NCBI GenBank assembly: GCA_016875095.1
Contig: VGSG01000042.1
Coordinates: forward strand, 1 to 36,055
From: Deltaproteobacteria bacterium
Lineage (GTDB): Bacteria; Desulfobacterota; Desulfomonilia; Desulfomonilales; Desulfomonilaceae
DNA: 36,055 nt
Direction: 5' to 3'
Below the pieces are notes generated by a model. That model worked only from the letters and a program-made list of their open reading frames with translations, was not told the DNA's origin and ran no database searches. Positions within the stretch are counted from its first letter, which is position 1. Each line of letters starts with the position of its first letter. A program made the position numbers and the translations under genes. This document shows positions 3,669 to 36,055 of the stretch, piece by piece.

Positions 3669-3860
3669 GCACCCCGCGCGGTCGTGAAGCCTTTTGGGAT
3701 GGGTGCAGGGGAACCCTTTACTCTCTGCGAACAGAGTTCCTCCGGAAACAGTTCTCCATGAACGAATTGAGTTAGACAGATGCGCATTCAAAGAGTCAAG
3801 ATGGGGGAAATTTTGTTGTGAGAGAAGTACCCCCACGGCTCAGGCAAGAAATCTCCACGG

Positions 3861-3908
3861 TTTTCGGAATGCTCATTTCCTCCTAAGGAGAAATGAGCAT
3901 TCCGAAAA
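3861..3908. repeat. Perfect 19-bp inverted repeat
   Basis: The arms at 3861-3879 and 3890-3908 are exact reverse complements with a 10-nt loop. The left arm starts TTTT and the right arm ends AAAA, so on either strand the stem begins with U's pairing with A's. It lies about 90 nt beyond the bamR stop and may end or protect the bam transcript. Confidence 0.75.
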
Positions 3909-3910
3909 AT

Positions 3911-3980
3911 GGTGGAAGTTCTTGGGGAGGGGGTCGGGGAGGACCTTCTTACGAGAAGGTCCTCCCCGATTTTTACCTCT
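3911..3980. repeat. Dispersed palindromic element, copy A (hairpin with T-tract)
   Basis: A 16-bp perfect stem (3934-3949 with 3954-3969, loop TACG) is followed on the plus strand by five T's. Flanking bases on both sides also match a second, decayed copy at 12651-12716, so this is a dispersed element rather than a gene-specific terminator. It may nonetheless act as transcription terminator after bamR. Confidence 0.65.
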
Positions 3981-3997: not shown

Positions 3998-4777
3998 TTA
4001 CTCGTTTTTCCAGGCGGGTTTGCGTTTTTCAATAAATGCGCCGATGCCTTCGTTCGCGTCGTGGGTTTCCATAAGCTCTTTGAGGTACAGACCTTCCATT
4101 TTGGGGAGGTCTTCTCGGAGCAAGCGGAAGAAGTTGGTCCGCGCGGCCTTGTTTGCGATGCGCAGCACGGACGCGCTCTTGGGAACTATGTGAGCCTCGA
4201 TCCATTTCGCGGCCGCGTCCCATGCGTCTTCACCTTCGTTCACCAGCATATTTGCCAGTCCGATCCGATACGCTTCCGCTCCATCGATGGAACGACCGGT
4301 TAAGATCAGATCGTCCGCGTACGCCTGACCCACTTTGAGGGACAGCATTACGGATGCCGGCGGCGGAAACACCGCAAGAACGATCTCAGGTTGCCCGAAG
4401 AACGCGGAACGGTCCGCGACGATGAAGTTGCAAAAAAGGGCCAATTCCATGCCTCCGCCCAGGCACTGCCCTCGCACTATCGCCATGGTGGGAATCGCGA
4501 GGTCTATGAGTTTGTGGAACATGGCATGGAACGCGTTGAGCATCATGGCTGCGTTTTCTTTGGTGTGCTCGGGGACGCTCGCGCCGAATGAGAAGTGCTT
4601 CCCAGCGCCTTCGAAGACGAGCAGCTTTAGGCTGTTGTCCTGCCTGAGAGAATCGAGGCACGCATTGATCTCCCGGAGCATTGCCGCTTCCATGACGTTT
4701 GCTTTGGGCGCGTTGAGGATAATCTTAAGGACCGCTCCGTCAAAGTGTTTTTCACACTGGATGAGCTTGTATTCCAT
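3998..4777 (-). CDS. bamR: Cyclohexa-1,5-diene-1-carbonyl-CoA hydratase
   Basis: A crotonase-fold enzyme of 259 aa. It adds water to the dienoyl-CoA made by benzoyl-CoA reductase, giving 6-hydroxycyclohex-1-ene-1-carbonyl-CoA, in the cytoplasm. Visible marks: ILNAPKANVMEAAM near residue 20, then GAGKHFSFGASVPEH (first oxyanion-hole strand with the FSFGAS signature typical of dienoyl-CoA hydratases), and RGQCLGGGMELAL (second oxyanion-hole loop). ADRSAFFGQPEIVLAVFPP follows. I chose the ATG at 4777 because GGAGGAGA stands directly upstream; the longer frame adds 16 unlikely residues. It is the last gene of the thiolase-DUF35-bamA-bamR block, 293 nt after bamA with a palindromic repeat between. 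A generic enoyl-CoA hydratase is the alternative, less likely beside bamA. Confidence 0.82.
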   Translation of the reverse strand: MEYKLIQCEKHFDGAVLKIILNAPKANVMEAAMLREINACLDSLRQDNSLKLLVFEGAGKHFSFGASVPEHTKENAAMMLNAFHAMFHKLIDLAIPTMAIVRGQCLGGGMELALFCNFIVADRSAFFGQPEIVLAVFPPPASVMLSLKVGQAYADDLILTGRSIDGAEAYRIGLANMLVNEGEDAWDAAAKWIEAHIVPKSASVLRIANKAARTNFFRLLREDLPKMEGLYLKELMETHDANEGIGAFIEKRKPAWKNE

Positions 4778-4924
4778 GACATCTCCTCCCTGACCGCAGG
4801 CTTCGGAGGACACGCGAGCCCTCATGCCGGGTTACGCACGGGATCGGGTTGTTGGTGGACTCTTGAGGCCAATGCGCCTTACCCCAGGAGGGCGCCAGAA
4901 TTAACTTGGAGGGAAGGAGTTGGA

Positions 4925-4997
4925 AAATCCCCCTGTATCCCCCTTTAGAAAAGGGGGATCGTGCCCCCCTTTATTATAAGGGGAGTTGGGGGGATTT
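4925..4997. repeat. Palindromic C-tract/G-tract intergenic repeat
   Basis: The outer arms AAATCCCCC (4925-4933) and GGGGGATTT (4989-4997) enclose two inner stems built from CCCCCTTT and AAAGGGGG-type tracts. It has the look of the short non-coding palindromic repeats common between genes in deltaproteobacteria. It lies between bamA and bamR, so it would fold in the shared transcript and could affect their relative expression. Confidence 0.7.
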
Positions 4998-5070
4998 CAG
5001 AGGGCCTTCCCGGGAATCCTTCCAAGACCTGGCAGATCTTGGAACCGCATCCGGTTATTGAATCTACGCC

Positions 5071-6201
5071 CTACTTCTGCGGCTTGCCCAAGACTTCGGC
5101 ATACTCGTCAAGAGTTGCCGGAGCCGTCGCGGCAATGTTCTGTCGGAACTTGACGAAATCGATCAAATCTTGCCCGGTGATCTTCTTGGTGTTGAACGCA
5201 TTGAACCCGAGGAAGGCCTCGTAATTCATGTTGGCCATGAGCCAATGCCTGTTGGCCAGCTTGTTCATATCCCAGAAGAACTTCTTTTTCTGCCGAATCC
5301 CGTCGATTGCCTTGATCAAGCAGCCCGGAAAGAGGTTGGTAAAGGTCCAGATAATCTTAGTCACCTCTTTGTCCAGGAGTTCGAAATCAATCGGGAGGTC
5401 CTTCATCAGGTCTTTGGCCTTCTGAGCCGCATCGCCGGTCTTGAATTCGCCGTATACGATTTCGCCGTCCTTCACGTACTCTTCGGTGATGATCGCCGGA
5501 TTGCGGATAAACTTGTCGCCCTGCTTGAGGACCGGAACGCATTTCGAGATGAGGTTCTTGGCCTTCATCTTGTATGCGCTCCATAGCTCGCAGCTCACGC
5601 AGTTCCACATCGCGTCTTCCATGTTGAGGAACCAGGGCAGGAAGTCGGTGGACCCACCGTCAGGGCTGGATCCGTGGCGAGCGCCGGCTTGCCCGAAAAT
5701 CGCCAGGTCGCTGGCAACCGCCAGGTCGCACGCCATGCCGATCTCCTGGCCGCCCGCGACCCGCATTCCATTCACGCGGCAGATGGTTGGCTTCTTGCAA
5801 TTGAGGATAGCGTCCACCATGCTGTTGAAAATATCCATGTATTCGCCGTACTCATGCGGCCGCATCGAGTAGTACTCGGCATACTCTTTGGTGTTGCCGC
5901 CCGTGCAGAACGCCCTGTCACCCGTGCCGGTGAAGACCACCGCAACCACGGAACGATCGAGGCCGGCCGCGGTAAAACCCGCTATCACGCCTTTTGCCAT
6001 CTCGGTGGTGTACGAATTGTACTGCTTCGGGTTGTTCAGGCGGACCCAGGCTACGTAAAGTCCGTCGATCACGTTTCCTTTTGGGTCGGTCAGAGGTCTC
6101 TTCTCGTAAACCGTGCATGGGGCCTCAGTTCCCCAGTGCTCGGGGCCGAAGAGCTGATGATCTTTCTTTTCGCGGTCCCGAGGTAACCATTCAAGCGCCA
6201 T
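5071..6201 (-). CDS. bamA: 6-oxocyclohex-1-ene-1-carbonyl-CoA hydrolase (ring-opening)
   Basis: A protein of 376 aa, the usual length for BamA/Oah and longer than ordinary crotonases. The enzyme adds water and hydrolytically opens the alicyclic ring, giving 3-hydroxypimeloyl-CoA in anaerobic benzoyl-CoA degradation. Visible: the start DHQLFGPEHWGTEAPC, a BamA-type extension before the crotonase fold; TGTGDRAFCTGGNTKEYAEYY, first oxyanion strand; NGMRVAGGQEIGMACDLAVASD, second; and FGQAGARHGSSPDGGSTDFLPWFL, a conserved BamA stretch. GGAGGAGG precedes the ATG at 6201. Upstream are thiolase and DUF35 genes and downstream bamR, so hydration, ring cleavage and perhaps thiolysis are grouped. The dehydrogenase step between BamR and BamA (bamQ) is absent from the window. 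Confidence 0.9.
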   Translation of the reverse strand: MALEWLPRDREKKDHQLFGPEHWGTEAPCTVYEKRPLTDPKGNVIDGLYVAWVRLNNPKQYNSYTTEMAKGVIAGFTAAGLDRSVVAVVFTGTGDRAFCTGGNTKEYAEYYSMRPHEYGEYMDIFNSMVDAILNCKKPTICRVNGMRVAGGQEIGMACDLAVASDLAIFGQAGARHGSSPDGGSTDFLPWFLNMEDAMWNCVSCELWSAYKMKAKNLISKCVPVLKQGDKFIRNPAIITEEYVKDGEIVYGEFKTGDAAQKAKDLMKDLPIDFELLDKEVTKIIWTFTNLFPGCLIKAIDGIRQKKKFFWDMNKLANRHWLMANMNYEAFLGFNAFNTKKITGQDLIDFVKFRQNIAATAPATLDEYAEVLGKPQK

Positions 6202-6354
6202 GTCTCAATCCTCCTCCTTGACTTTGATCTTCAGAATCCAAGCGTGGAATTCAGGGGATTGCGCGGTATCACGTTGCGAAGGCAAACCGGAACCCACAAC
6301 CCCTTTCAGCAGTAACGCCATATAGAATCCGGTGTTCCGTAGCGGCAACCTAGG

Positions 6355-6843
6355 CTACGTGACCGGCTCAAACGCGTAGAATACGCGCGGAATCTCTTGA
6401 ATTCCGCCCTTGACTTCCTGTGGCACCGGATCCACATCGAAGACTGCGACCCGGACCTTGTCTCCAACTTTGAGCTGACCCTCCGCGCAGTTGATCACGC
6501 GCACGAACATAGTCTTCTTACCTTGGAGATCCACCAGGGCATGGACCAGCGGCGCTTTCCCGAAACCAAGCGGCACGCCCACCACTTCTTCGGTGAATTC
6601 GATCACGGTCCCTTCGTTAGGCCAATCAATCCACTGCATATTGGTGGAAAAGCATTCCGGACACATGACGCGAGGGGGAAAGGATTCCGCTCCGCAGTCA
6701 GCGCATTTCGTAGTGGTGAATCGTCCCTGTTTGAGGTTCTCGTAAAATGCATAGACCTGATTGAATTCCTTGGACTGCTGCGGGAACAGGTCCATGGTCA
6801 CCATATATTTGCCGTCGAGCACAGAGATCCCGGGTGTGGTCAT
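6355..6843 (-). CDS. DUF35 zinc-ribbon/OB-fold protein, thiolase partner
   Basis: A 162-aa protein with a rubredoxin-like zinc ribbon, CADC at residues 47-50 and CPEC at 61-64, followed by an OB-fold: GTVIEFTEEVVGVPLGFGKAPLVHALVDL, then VGDKVRVAVFDVDP. Proteins of this family bind CoA esters and form a stable complex with an SCP2-type thiolase; known pairs are archaeal acetoacetyl-CoA thiolase complexes and BbsA in benzoylsuccinyl-CoA thiolase (BbsAB). Its ATG (6841-6843) overlaps the TGA of the upstream thiolase (ATGA), so the two are translationally coupled and probably made in equal amounts. It is followed, 153 nt later, by bamA. Confidence 0.82.
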   Translation of the reverse strand: MTTPGISVLDGKYMVTMDLFPQQSKEFNQVYAFYENLKQGRFTTTKCADCGAESFPPRVMCPECFSTNMQWIDWPNEGTVIEFTEEVVGVPLGFGKAPLVHALVDLQGKKTMFVRVINCAEGQLKVGDKVRVAVFDVDPVPQEVKGGIQEIPRVFYAFEPVT

Positions 6844-8015
6844 ACAGGCTCCCTCCCATAGACTAGAACCGTGTGAGCGGCGATGAACCCGCTCAAATTG
6901 TGGGTCAGACCGATATCCGCGCCTTTCACCTGCTGTGTTGCATCGCCACGGAGCTGTTTCATCACTTCAATGGCCTGCCGAATGCCGGTGCCGCCAAACG
7001 GATGTCCGCACCCGAGAAGGCCTCCATCCGTATTGGTGGGAACCTTGCCGCCAAGATCGTTCTGGCCTTCACCCACGAACGGACCGCCTTCGCCCTTCTT
7101 GCAAAAACCCAGATCCTCCATCTCGATGATCTCGGAAATGGTAAAGCAGTCATGGGTCATGGCCACTTTGACGTCCTTGGGCTCGATCTTCGCCTTCCGA
7201 TAGGCTTCTTGACCGGCAATCTTGAGAGCTTCCCAGGTGGTCCAACTGGGCATGTTGGCGGACATGTTGTTCACCGAAGCCTGGCCCGTGCCCCGAAGAT
7301 AGACCAGCGGTTTATCGGTCAATTGCTTGGCCTTTTCTTCCGCGCACAGGATCACGCCCGCGGCGCCGTCGGTAATCGGGCAGCAATCAAAGAGCGAGAG
7401 CGGCTGCACGATCGGGCGAGCATTCATATACTCGTCCTTCGTGATTCCCTGCTGAAATTGCGCTTTCGGGTTCAGCGCCGCATTTCGACGGTTCTTGACT
7501 GAGATTGCGCCAAGCTGTTCCTTGGTAGTGCCGTACTGCTTCATGTGCTGCTTGGCAACCATCGCGAAGACCGGCGGCGGCAAACCCAAACCTTGGGGGC
7601 CGTCCCAATCGTGATCCACTGAGGCCAGTTCGCTGTAGAAGACTTCCCACTTCTGTGGCGTGTAAAGCTTTTCTCCGCCCATCACCATCACCACATCGGC
7701 CTGGCCCGCCTTGATCAACCCGAATGCCAGGATGATGGCGGAGCTGCCGCTCGCGCACAGTAGTTCCACCCTTGCGCAGATCGATTTGGGCTTCACGCCG
7801 ATGTGCTCGGCGACAAGTGGGGCCAGATGAGTTTGGTACGAAGTGCGTTCCGTGTACGCGGATGCAACCAGTAACCCATCAATTTCCTTGGGGTTAACCT
7901 GAAGATTGTCCTCGTAGCAGGCCTTGGCCGCCTCCTGGAAGAAATCCCTCTGGCTCCCGTTCCTGACCCCCCACTTGGACATTCCTCCGGCAATGATGCA
8001 TACGTTGCGGTCCAT
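6840..8015 (-). CDS. SCP2/BbsB-type thiolase in the benzoyl-CoA operon
   Basis: A 391-aa member of the thiolase superfamily. The nucleophile is probably Cys87 in VELLCASGSSAI; the conserved GGLLGCGHPFGGTG His loop and the closing LTHNLSGFIAAHTVLVYG fit the SCP2-type branch that works with a DUF35 subunit. The branch has THN in place of the second catalytic Cys region. In this setting the best guess is thiolysis of 3-oxopimeloyl-CoA to glutaryl-CoA and acetyl-CoA, the step that follows BamA and a 3-hydroxyacyl-CoA dehydrogenase. A benzoylsuccinyl-CoA thiolase (toluene pathway) is possible, but no bss/bbs genes are seen. It is the first gene of the block; GGAGG lies 9 nt before the ATG at 8015. 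Confidence 0.8.
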   Translation of the reverse strand: MDRNVCIIAGGMSKWGVRNGSQRDFFQEAAKACYEDNLQVNPKEIDGLLVASAYTERTSYQTHLAPLVAEHIGVKPKSICARVELLCASGSSAIILAFGLIKAGQADVVMVMGGEKLYTPQKWEVFYSELASVDHDWDGPQGLGLPPPVFAMVAKQHMKQYGTTKEQLGAISVKNRRNAALNPKAQFQQGITKDEYMNARPIVQPLSLFDCCPITDGAAGVILCAEEKAKQLTDKPLVYLRGTGQASVNNMSANMPSWTTWEALKIAGQEAYRKAKIEPKDVKVAMTHDCFTISEIIEMEDLGFCKKGEGGPFVGEGQNDLGGKVPTNTDGGLLGCGHPFGGTGIRQAIEVMKQLRGDATQQVKGADIGLTHNLSGFIAAHTVLVYGREPV

Positions 8016-32944: not shown

Positions 32945-33298
32945 GGGCATAGGCGTTAAAATAGGATTGGCCTCTGGCGCTGCACATTCCCCCCTCACCC
33001 TGCCCTCTCCCGCCAGGGGAGAGGGTTTCCGGAACCCCCTCCCTCGATGGGAGGGGGAAGGGGGCATAGGCGTTGAAATAAGGCTAGCCTCTAGTGCCGG
33101 GGTATTCCCCCTCACCCTGCCCTCTCCCGCCAGGGGAGAGGGTTTCCGGAACCCCCTCCCTCGATGGGAGGGGGAAGGGGGCATAGGCGTTAAAATAAGG
33201 CTAGCCTCTAGTGCCGGGGTATTCTCCCTCGCCCTACCCTCTCCCGCCAGGGGAGAGGGTTTCCGGAACCCCCTCCCTCGATGGGAGGGGGAAGGGGG
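32945..33298. repeat. Three tandem 117-bp repeats with palindromic G/C stems
   Basis: Units start at 32945, 33062 and 33179 (GGGCATAGGCGTT). Units 2 and 3 differ at about four positions; unit 1 is more diverged in its first 50 nt. Each unit carries two stems: CCCTCTCCC with GGGAGAGGG, and CCCCCTCCC with GGGAGGGGG. This kind of sequence is a dispersed intergenic repeat in many proteobacteria; here it is tandemly amplified. Confidence 0.85.
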
Positions 33299-33498: not shown

Positions 33499-36055
33499 AT
33501 GTACGAAATCTGGCATGCGGACCTGAAGAAGGCTGTGGCTGAGGGGGAAGCTCTCTTCATCGTGGGAACGGGCGTTTCCATCGCGGCCACGAACGGAGCG
33601 GAATGCGCATCCTGGACGGGGCTCCTGAAGCATGGAGCTCACCGCTGTGTCGATGTGGCTGTGCCCAAGCTTCGAGGGGACTGGGAGGTGGACGTTTGCA
33701 AGGAAATCGATTCCGAGGACCTCGACGATCTCTTGTCTGCCGCGGAAAAAGTCTCTCGCAAATTGCGCGCGCCTGACGGTGGTGAGTGGTCCCGCTGGCT
33801 GAGGGAATCCGTCGGCGAGCTGAAGATCCATGACCGACAGGTTCTGGAGGCACTGCGCGACCTCAACCTTCCTCTGGCCACAACCAACTATGACCATCTC
33901 CTTGCGACTGTCACGGGGCGAGAGGTGGTACCGTGGACTGAGAAGCGCAAGATTGAACAAGTTATTCGGCGCGAGCGTCAGGGAATCGTGCATCTCCACG
34001 GCCATTGGGATGATCCCAAATCGGTGGTTCTGGGCATAAGGTCTTACGAAAAGGTTCTGGGGGATGAGCACGCGCAGGCGACTCTCCGAGCGCTTGCTTT
34101 CATGAAGACGCTCGTCTTCGTAGGCTTTGACGCAGGATTGAATGACCCGAATTTTGGCGCTTTGCTGAAATGGACCGAGCAAGTTTTCGTTCAATCCGAG
34201 TATCGACGTTTTCGCTTGGTCCGAGAGAGTAAAGTCGAGCAGGTAAGAGCCCAGCACCCGATAGAACAGCGGCTCTTTGTGCTGTCGTACGGCCCGGATT
34301 ATTCGGACCTTGCCCCGTTTCTGCGCTCGTTGGGCAGTTTCCAGCCTGCACACGCGCCCGGGCCTTCCGCCTCTCCCAGCGCACGCGCGATCATTCCCGC
34401 TGCGCCCCGCATTTTCGGCCGCGAGGATAAGGTTCAAGAGCTTATCGCGGCGATCCTGGCTGATAAGCCCGATCCGATACCGGCGCTGGGCGGTCCGGGG
34501 ATCGGAAAGACCGCGGTGACGCTCGTGGCCTTGAATGACAACGCGGTGATCGCTCGGTTTGGAGACAGGCGCTATTTTGTGCGGTGCGACGCTGCCAAAT
34601 CCCGCCGGGAACTGGCCTCAACGATTGCGAAGAACATGGGCTTGTCGGCCCCGTCGGACCCTGAACAGGCCATACAAGCTTTTCTGGAGCGTGAACCCGC
34701 GCTGCTCGTTCTCGACAATGCGGAAACACCCTGGGAAAACGACCTGTTGCCTGTTGAAGAGCTGCTCGGGATTCTCGGTCGGTGTTGTTGCGGGGCGATG
34801 GTGGTGTCTATGCGGGGGCACGAACGGCCTCAGGAAGTCTCGTGGCGGCAGCCCATAGAACTGACCCGCCTCGATGACGATTCCGCGCGTGAAGCATTCT
34901 TGGAAATTGCGGGAAAGGAATTCGCGGACGACCCGCGCGTACGCGACCTGTGTAAGGAGCTGGAAGGCGTGCCCTTGGCCATTACCCTCATGGCCCTTGC
35001 CGCGCAAGGTGAGAGTGACCTGGAGGGAATCTGGTCACGCTGGCAGAGCGAGCGCACCGCTATGCTCAAACGGGATAAGGGAGATCACCCACTGACCAGC
35101 CTCGATCTCTCGTATCAGATCTCCATCCACGGCGATCGCATGAATCCCGAGGCTCGGGAGCTGCTATCAGTTCTCTCGTTGCTCCCCGACGGGCTTGCGC
35201 ATCAGGATCTACCGGAAATCCACCCACATGGGCATCGTGCCGCATCCACGCTTCGCAAAGTTGGCCTGGCATTTGACGAAGCCGGTCGCCTACGCGTGCT
35301 CGCCCCGCTTCGCGAGCACGTGACCAAGAAATATCCCCCGGAGAAGGACGCGCTGGATCCGGTGGTGTCCCATTTCGTCGAACTGGCGCTGGAGCATGGT
35401 GACACGGTGGGCCGCGAGGGGGGCGCTGAAGCGGTCCAACGACTCTCACAGGAAGTCGGGAACGTGGAAGCGATGCTGATCAGGGCTTTGACGAGGGAAG
35501 CGAGCGAAGAGACAATTCAAGCTAGCGTGGACTGGGGTGAATTCGTCCGCTTCACCGGTCTCGGGTCCATACGGCCTCTTGCAGCCGCCCTCGCCGCGGC
35601 TGAAGCCCTTGGCCTGGTACAAGACCAGGCAAACTGCATCAAGCGCCTCGGAGACATCGCCCTTCGGCGCTCCGATCACGACTTGGCCCGGGCCCAGTAC
35701 GAAAAGGCGATCCCTCTTTACCAAAAGGTCGGCTCCATACTCGGAGAGGCAAACTGCATCCAGAGCCTCGGACACATCGCCCTTCGGCGCTCCGATTACG
35801 ACTTGGCCCGGGCCCAGTACGAAAAGGCCCTTACACTTTTTCAAAAGGTCGGCGACATACTCGGAGAGGCAAACTGCATCCGGAGCCTCGGAGACATCGC
35901 TCTTCGGCGCTCCGATCACGACTTGGCCCGGGCCCAGTACGAAAAGGCGATCCCTCTTTACCAAAAGGTCGGCTCCATAGTCGGAGAGGCAAACTGCATC
36001 AAGAGCCTCGGAGACATCGCCCTGGAGCGCTCCGATCACGACTTGGCCCGGGCCC
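33499..36055 (+). CDS. SIR2 - NB-ARC - TPR (NLR-like) protein, 3' end outside window
   Basis: 852 residues are visible and the frame is open to the edge. N-terminal SIR2-like NADase domain (about 1-260): GTGVS at 23-27, TTNYD at 128-132 with Asn130, HLHGH at 165-169 with probable catalytic His167, and FVGFDAGLNDPNF at 207-219. Next an NB-ARC/STAND ATPase: FGRED near 308, Walker A GGPGIGKT at 331-338 (Lys337), Walker B LLVLDN at 402-407, VVSMRG sensor, GVPLA at 490-494, then a winged-helix part ending near LAPLREHVTKKYPP. From about 700 come TPR repeats of exactly 40 residues. This is the layout of bacterial NLR-like anti-phage proteins: the TPRs sense, the ATPase oligomerises, and SIR2 depletes NAD to stop phage growth. 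ATG at 33499 with only a weak ribosome site; no partner gene is visible. Confidence 0.85.
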   Translation, partial: MYEIWHADLKKAVAEGEALFIVGTGVSIAATNGAECASWTGLLKHGAHRCVDVAVPKLRGDWEVDVCKEIDSEDLDDLLSAAEKVSRKLRAPDGGEWSRWLRESVGELKIHDRQVLEALRDLNLPLATTNYDHLLATVTGREVVPWTEKRKIEQVIRRERQGIVHLHGHWDDPKSVVLGIRSYEKVLGDEHAQATLRALAFMKTLVFVGFDAGLNDPNFGALLKWTEQVFVQSEYRRFRLVRESKVEQVRAQHPIEQRLFVLSYGPDYSDLAPFLRSLGSFQPAHAPGPSASPSARAIIPAAPRIFGREDKVQELIAAILADKPDPIPALGGPGIGKTAVTLVALNDNAVIARFGDRRYFVRCDAAKSRRELASTIAKNMGLSAPSDPEQAIQAFLEREPALLVLDNAETPWENDLLPVEELLGILGRCCCGAMVVSMRGHERPQEVSWRQPIELTRLDDDSAREAFLEIAGKEFADDPRVRDLCKELEGVPLAITLMALAAQGESDLEGIWSRWQSERTAMLKRDKGDHPLTSLDLSYQISIHGDRMNPEARELLSVLSLLPDGLAHQDLPEIHPHGHRAASTLRKVGLAFDEAGRLRVLAPLREHVTKKYPPEKDALDPVVSHFVELALEHGDTVGREGGAEAVQRLSQEVGNVEAMLIRALTREASEETIQASVDWGEFVRFTGLGSIRPLAAALAAAEALGLVQDQANCIKRLGDIALRRSDHDLARAQYEKAIPLYQKVGSILGEANCIQSLGHIALRRSDYDLARAQYEKALTLFQKVGDILGEANCIRSLGDIALRRSDHDLARAQYEKAIPLYQKVGSIVGEANCIKSLGDIALERSDHDLARA
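35641..36055 (+). repeat. Exact-period 120-bp coding repeats (TPR units)
   Basis: Three full units (35641, 35761, 35881) and the start of a fourth (36001), each 120 bp, in frame, coding for LGDIALRRSDHDLARAQYEK and the following helix. Units 1 and 3 differ at only about 5 of 120 positions, and synonymous sites are conserved too, pointing to recent duplication or gene conversion. Confidence 0.9.

Follow-up and report, generated by a model that had tools for sequence, protein, structure and literature searches.

A DUF35-partnered SCP2-type thiolase encoded beside the ring-opening hydrolase BamA in Desulfomonilaceae: a candidate thiolase for the lower benzoyl-CoA pathway

The anaerobic breakdown of aromatic compounds passes through benzoyl-coenzyme A (benzoyl-CoA) as its central intermediate. 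The window analysed here is the whole of contig VGSG01000042.1 (36,055 nucleotides; contig C42 of a 4.7-Mb genome in 202 contigs) from a Deltaproteobacteria bacterium of the family Desulfomonilaceae (assembly GCA_016875095.1), and at positions 3998-8015 it carries genes for an SCP2-type thiolase, a DUF35 zinc protein, the ring-opening hydrolase BamA and a BamR-like dienoyl-CoA hydratase, all on the minus strand. The best explanation overall, which we consider about evenly poised between right and wrong, is that the first two genes encode the two subunits of a beta-ketothiolase that acts in the lower benzoyl-CoA pathway and cleaves 3-oxopimeloyl-CoA. This explanation draws on the identities of the genes, on their linkage to bamA across the family, and on the intact catalytic motifs, fold and phylogenetic place of the thiolase. 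A lower-pathway role for the pair is probable, and reasonable because the gene for a DUF35-dependent SCP2-type thiolase is in fixed linkage with that for the ring-opening hydrolase; 3-oxopimeloyl-CoA as the main substrate is a tentative assignment that falls somewhat short of an even chance.

The linkage was examined in 18 genomes of the family, including that of the window, at a thiolase threshold of E<=1e-120. Sixteen of the 18 have a match, and the best matches in the 15 further genomes are 82-87% identical to the window thiolase. Since the order thiolase-DUF35-bamA is kept in all 15, the block represents more than chance. The bamR gene comes next in 11 of these 15 loci, which are all those whose contig continues, the other four contigs ending in or just after bamA. 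Contamination and chance neighbourhood were accordingly excluded by the recurrence of the four-gene order across the family. G302 and G311, the two members of the family in which the thiolase is absent, have no BamA above the cut-off either, and they are only 85% and 81% complete. An M18 aminopeptidase gene that adjoins the block is, by eye, also present on its upstream side in L181, L182 and L184. In the assembly of genome G305, the thiolase gene is split across two frames (L193:3838-5113); the same genome has a further thiolase (51% identity) with a DUF35 gene, not adjoining bamA, at L194:2913-4489, which groups with G293.

As judged from its motifs, its fold and the adjacent zinc-ribbon DUF35 gene, the predicted enzyme is an SCP2-type DUF35-dependent thiolase. 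The catalytic cysteine, the HDCF motif and the histidine of the GHP motif (Table 1) are all intact, and the protein matches the Pfam model Thiolase_C_1 at 157 bits. In both sequence and fold its best match is the archaeal acetoacetyl-CoA thiolase of PDB entry 6esq (36% identity; Z 49.9, root-mean-square deviation (rmsd) 2.1 over 368 residues). Further fold matches are 5m3k (Z 45.1), BbsB (7pxp; Z 44.7, rmsd 2.5, 370 residues, 29%), Ltp2 (6ok1; Z 42.5, rmsd 2.8, 362 residues) and 9myr (Z 41.1), all for a structure model with a mean predicted local distance difference test (pLDDT) score of 77 and under 50 in loop 119-145. The cut-offs of NF053570 (acetyl-CoA acetyltransferase; 322 bits, cut-off 600) and PRK06064 (374 bits, cut-off 420) are not reached. 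The DUF35 protein matches zf-ChsH2 (45.8 bits) and OB_ChsH2_C (36.8 bits), both above the Pfam cut-offs. A quick tree was built for 89 rows and a careful tree for 53, with 36 rows dropped to make it shorter and free of long branches. BbsB, against which the earlier note on this sequence had proposed to place the thiolase, forms a separate clade, a common clade with the window group being rejected by the approximately unbiased test (p 3.6e-5); for a monophyletic group of bam-linked thiolases that leaves out G372, p is 0.096.

From these observations we infer the formation of a complex, a reaction, its substrate and the roles of particular residues. The thiolase and the DUF35 protein would assemble as a two-subunit complex in which DUF35 would complete the CoA-side entrance. 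BamR would hydrate the dienoyl-CoA, BamQ, encoded on another contig, would oxidise the BamR product, BamA would open the ring to give 3-hydroxypimeloyl-CoA, and a dehydrogenase would convert this to 3-oxopimeloyl-CoA, which the window thiolase would cleave with CoA to glutaryl-CoA and acetyl-CoA. Residue roles, which we assign by analogy with SCP2-type thiolases, would make Cys87 the nucleophile and His288, Cys290 and His338 the other catalytic residues.

With respect to the layout of the block (Table 1), gene calls and profile matches agree with the earlier note that the four genes share one strand, the match of the BamR-like protein being below its cut-off, and the ATGA coupling of thiolase and DUF35 that it described is seen in the sequence. 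The BamR-like protein scores 246.3 bits against TIGR03189, below the cut-off of 292.5 and more than 100 bits ahead of the next model, and its orthologue in genome G306 scores 245 bits; we therefore call the hydratase BamR-like, its best model match being below cut-off. Its open reading frame extends to 4825, and the second ATG at 4777, after GGGAGGAG, is the likely start. The block is loosely packed: a gap of 153 nucleotides separates the DUF35 gene from bamA, and one of about 290 nucleotides, holding the palindromic repeat, separates bamA from bamR. Co-transcription of all four genes is possible, and the palindrome downstream of bamR is a possible 3' end of the unit; the number of terminator-like sites in the region is not clearly above that in shuffled sequence, and the scan for promoters and terminators stays near shuffle level. 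Elsewhere in the window, tandem repeats with periods of 120 and 117 nucleotides occupy 35627-36055 and 32945-33298, respectively.

Table 1. Features of the thiolase-DUF35-bamA-bamR region of the window
Feature	Positions	Strand	Details
SCP2-type thiolase, 391 aa	6840..8015	-	catalytic Cys87, HDCF 288-291, GHP His338
DUF35 zinc-ribbon/OB-fold partner, 162 aa	6355..6843	-	Cys47/50/61/64; ATGA overlap with thiolase
bamA, 6-oxocyclohex-1-ene-1-carbonyl-CoA hydrolase	5071..6201	-	TIGR03200 555.8 bits, cut-off 464.45
bamR-like dienoyl-CoA hydratase, 259 aa from second ATG	3998..4777	-	TIGR03189 is best model
Palindromic repeat in the bamA-bamR gap, resembling a terminator on either strand	4925..5000		
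Long palindrome downstream of bamR	3840..3935	-	RNA fold -43.9 kcal/mol, z -8.4

The earlier note had also found bamQ and the reductase genes to be missing, which holds within the window and fails for the genome. bamQ stands alone on contig C48 (452 bits, cut-off 339). BamB is encoded on contig C21 (L128; 1267 bits to PDB 4z3w) and the genes that come after it agree with bamC-I in size and order, the search match being for BamB only. BzdQ is found on contig C101 (418 bits, cut-off 380) together with a BzdP-like activator (L115:1317-3018). True absence of the reductase genes is thus ruled out. A single genome here holds both reductase-related sets, the BamB-type reductase cluster on C21 and the BzdQ/BzdP-like activators on C101. 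In G306, bzdQ (above cut-off) and a BzdP-like gene lie immediately upstream of the window-type block.

Beyond the family, we searched 395 Desulfobacterota genomes with the thiolase at E<=1e-85. Of 30 matches, three (G237, G045 and G077) were dropped at 42-43% identity, leaving 27 genomes with a window-type thiolase, 22 of them outside the family at 51-79% identity. Loci were fetched for all 22 (L220-L241) and for the three dropped. DUF35 adjoins the thiolase in 22/22. On the same strand and within 4 kb, 15 of the 22 have a 3-hydroxyacyl-CoA dehydrogenase gene and 15 an enoyl-CoA hydratase gene; 13 have both, forming a dehydrogenase-hydratase-thiolase-DUF35 cassette, and five have neither. One contig of G322 carries both the cassette and bam reductase genes, at a distance of about 32 kb; the other stretches examined for this purpose showed no bam reductase genes.

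BamA is present in 102 of the 395 genomes at E<=1e-100. Of the 27 genomes that have a window-type thiolase, 19 have it as well, against 7.0 expected (Fisher, 6e-7), as do 9 of the 11 families concerned, where 3.3 are expected if there are 106 families, a total taken from the highest family code seen. As a negative control, SCP2 thiolases on the BbsB side (>=255 bits) showed no excess, with bamA in 9 of 35 genomes and 8.5 expected, an expectation that treats the 297 genomes searched as all within the 395. The genomes are related, and the p-values for co-occurrence overstate the evidence.

The genome of the window encodes six SCP2-type and eight classical thiolases, a seventh Thiolase_C_1 match belonging to one of the classical enzymes. 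One of these six stands in a second thiolase-DUF35 pair, on contig C52 (L101:1674-3254), without recognised bam neighbours; in the 53-row tree its thiolase clusters (100/100) with nine from the named collection that are encoded near bamA, and four from records labelled Thermoplasmatota, Krumholzibacteriota and unclassified bacterium join this group (100/96). Among the best 80 of 583 bamA loci in that collection, where many contigs are short, 18 have a thiolase-DUF35 pair, five of the window type and 13 of the second group; L022 and L043, with weak thiolase matches and no DUF35, were left out. The five window-type loci (L007-L011) are also among the 15 family contigs, and the two sets are not independent. 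Because the 13 were sampled by their nearness to bamA, the C52 thiolase was searched for without that bias, and its type was found in 77 of the 395 genomes (>=57% identity; G140 was dropped at 49%). In nine genomes it lies within 6.5 kb of bamA. In G306 it follows, with DUF35, directly after a second bamA (L289:6236-9073), and in G045 the pair stands between bamE-H-like genes and bamQ-bamA-bamR-like genes. Two kinds of DUF35-thiolase are therefore tied to bamA, and the window pair is the one whose linkage is less widespread. By eye, acyl-CoA ligase-like and transporter-like genes lie near the second bamA block of G306. In L295 and L292 the C52-type pair comes after genes resembling ruvX and mltG, which we take to be a conserved, non-obvious neighbourhood. 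Elsewhere in the window's own genome, contig C9 (L104:1079-2269) encodes a thiolase-like protein that has YEDCF in the place of HDCF; its neighbours are DUF35 and TRAP-transporter-like genes, and it may be an aldolase-like enzyme.

The earlier note's suggestion of a 3-oxopimeloyl-CoA thiolase thus gains a reasonable pathway role from the bamA linkage; genomics does not decide between this substrate and acetoacetyl-CoA, and we hold 3-oxopimeloyl-CoA only slightly above. What tips the balance slightly in its favour is the family linkage to bamA and bamR, the bzdQ neighbour in G306, and the parallels with aabBCD and ORM2a described below. Several observations weigh on the other side. None of the 22 loci outside the family has bamA beside the thiolase, and bamA is absent altogether from 8 of the 27 genomes that carry the orthologue. 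In L230, the one locus in which cassette partners were profiled, the dehydrogenase scores best as a 3-hydroxybutyryl-CoA dehydrogenase (368 bits, below the cut-off of 408) and the hydratase as a short-chain enoyl-CoA hydratase (285 bits, below the cut-off of 394). Loop 112-150, which we take to be the substrate-covering loop, hardly differs between bam-linked and cassette-linked orthologues; because of this likeness, the covering loop, by itself, suggests one substrate class for both forms, and the substrate is probably unchanged between them. The 39 fixed sites that differ between the two forms, of which two (S89 and S92) lie in the nucleophile loop, have no clear mapping to a substrate change. 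The nearest fold is that of an acetoacetyl-CoA thiolase, and the eight classical thiolases of the genome could serve either thiolytic step. Finally, the C52 clade, also present in the genome of the window, is the more closely tied to bamA, which occurs in 60 of its 77 genomes against 19.9 expected (Fisher, 6e-28) and is lacking in 17.

Most of these observations speak for the strongest rival, namely that the window pair completes the lower pathway as its acetoacetyl-CoA (C4) thiolase, and that the C52 DUF35-thiolase, a natural candidate for the C7 step, acts on 3-oxopimeloyl-CoA. The presence of the C52 type in 22 of the 27 window-clade genomes, where 5.3 are expected, is what such a division of labour predicts. 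Within its own family, however, the thiolase has bamA and bamR as its neighbours in place of C4 genes, the cassette partners fall below the cut-offs of their NCBIfam models, and aabBCD, of like make-up, is assigned to the C7 step (PMC9795900). We regard this rival as possible, if rather doubtful. Less plausible again, and in our view unlikely, is a broad beta-ketothiolase serving both thiolytic steps and isofunctional with the C52 pair; both clades do stand beside a bamA in G306, and the orthologue is found with and without bamA, but the conservation within the family would be expected equally of a specific enzyme. A thiolase-fold aldolase (Ltp2/Sal type) or acyltransferase (PhlC type) would have the thiolase-DUF35 architecture and the fold similarity to 6ok1, 9myr and 5m3k in common with the window pair, but HDCF is intact, steroid aldolases use Tyr-containing motifs according to the accessible text of PMC12329534, and the gene context offers no aldol substrate, all of which makes this very improbable. 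The aldolase identity was ruled out on the intact HDCF and the lack of a Tyr-containing motif. The earlier note's other proposal, a BbsAB-like benzoylsuccinyl-CoA thiolase or its relic, has the two-subunit architecture and the weak similarity of the DUF35 protein to BbsA (30.9 bits, cut-off 250) to recommend it, and was rejected as scarcely credible given 168.3 bits against a BbsB cut-off of 750, HDCF in place of HDAF, the separate clade, and no bbs genes recognised beside the thiolase.

The thiolase that acts after ring opening is, in the portions of the literature available to us, mostly assigned by annotation. Two clades of DUF35-thiolases that follow bamA in many lineages are testable candidates for both thiolytic steps; they would widen the known roles of DUF35 partners and could provide marker genes for complete benzoate-degrading genomes. 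The window clade stands beside bamA in Desulfomonilaceae, and the second is seen close to bamA both in Desulfobacterota and in records that carry the labels Myxococcota, Krumholzibacteriota and Thermoplasmatota. It is conceivable, though we lean against it, that two or more separate recruitments brought DUF35-thiolases to BamA as the enzyme that cleaves the ring fragment, and that they form an unrecognised standard class of 3-oxopimeloyl-CoA thiolases in anaerobic benzoyl-CoA degradation.

DUF35-thiolase complexes are a known kind. As the earlier note supposed, a DUF35 partner at the thiolase step of the lower benzoyl-CoA pathway was not found described in the open-licence literature searched, as far as its accessible parts extend (papers without one include PMC9795900, PMC13101534, PMC1924859, PMC11960108, PMC7773648 and PMC12329534). 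In Aromatoleum sp. CIB, AabD of aabBCD is called a 3-oxopimelyl-CoA thiolase, and this hydratase-dehydrogenase-thiolase grouping resembles, by description, the cassette of the orthologues, with no DUF35 partner mentioned in the available text (PMC9795900). A parallel, again by description, is ORM2a, where high abundance of a dehydrogenase and a neighbouring "thiolase family protein" contrasts with scarce C4 enzymes (PMC13101534). The BamN thiolase of Geobacter metallireducens (Gmet_2074), induced 50-fold on benzoate, can be likened to the window thiolase by description, the accessible part of the report mentioning no DUF35 partner (PMC1924859). The acetoacetyl-CoA thiolase-DUF35 system of Methanothermococcus thermolithotrophicus (6esq, 6et9) has, like the window, a CASGS nucleophile loop, HDCF and a separate DUF35 protein, but identity over the fold alignment is 36% and the pathway context differs, no gene for 3-hydroxy-3-methylglutaryl-CoA synthase being recognised beside the window block. 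BbsAB (7pxp) differs from the window proteins in motif, clade and profile score, but has in common with them a two-subunit thiolase-DUF35 architecture in anaerobic aromatic degradation.

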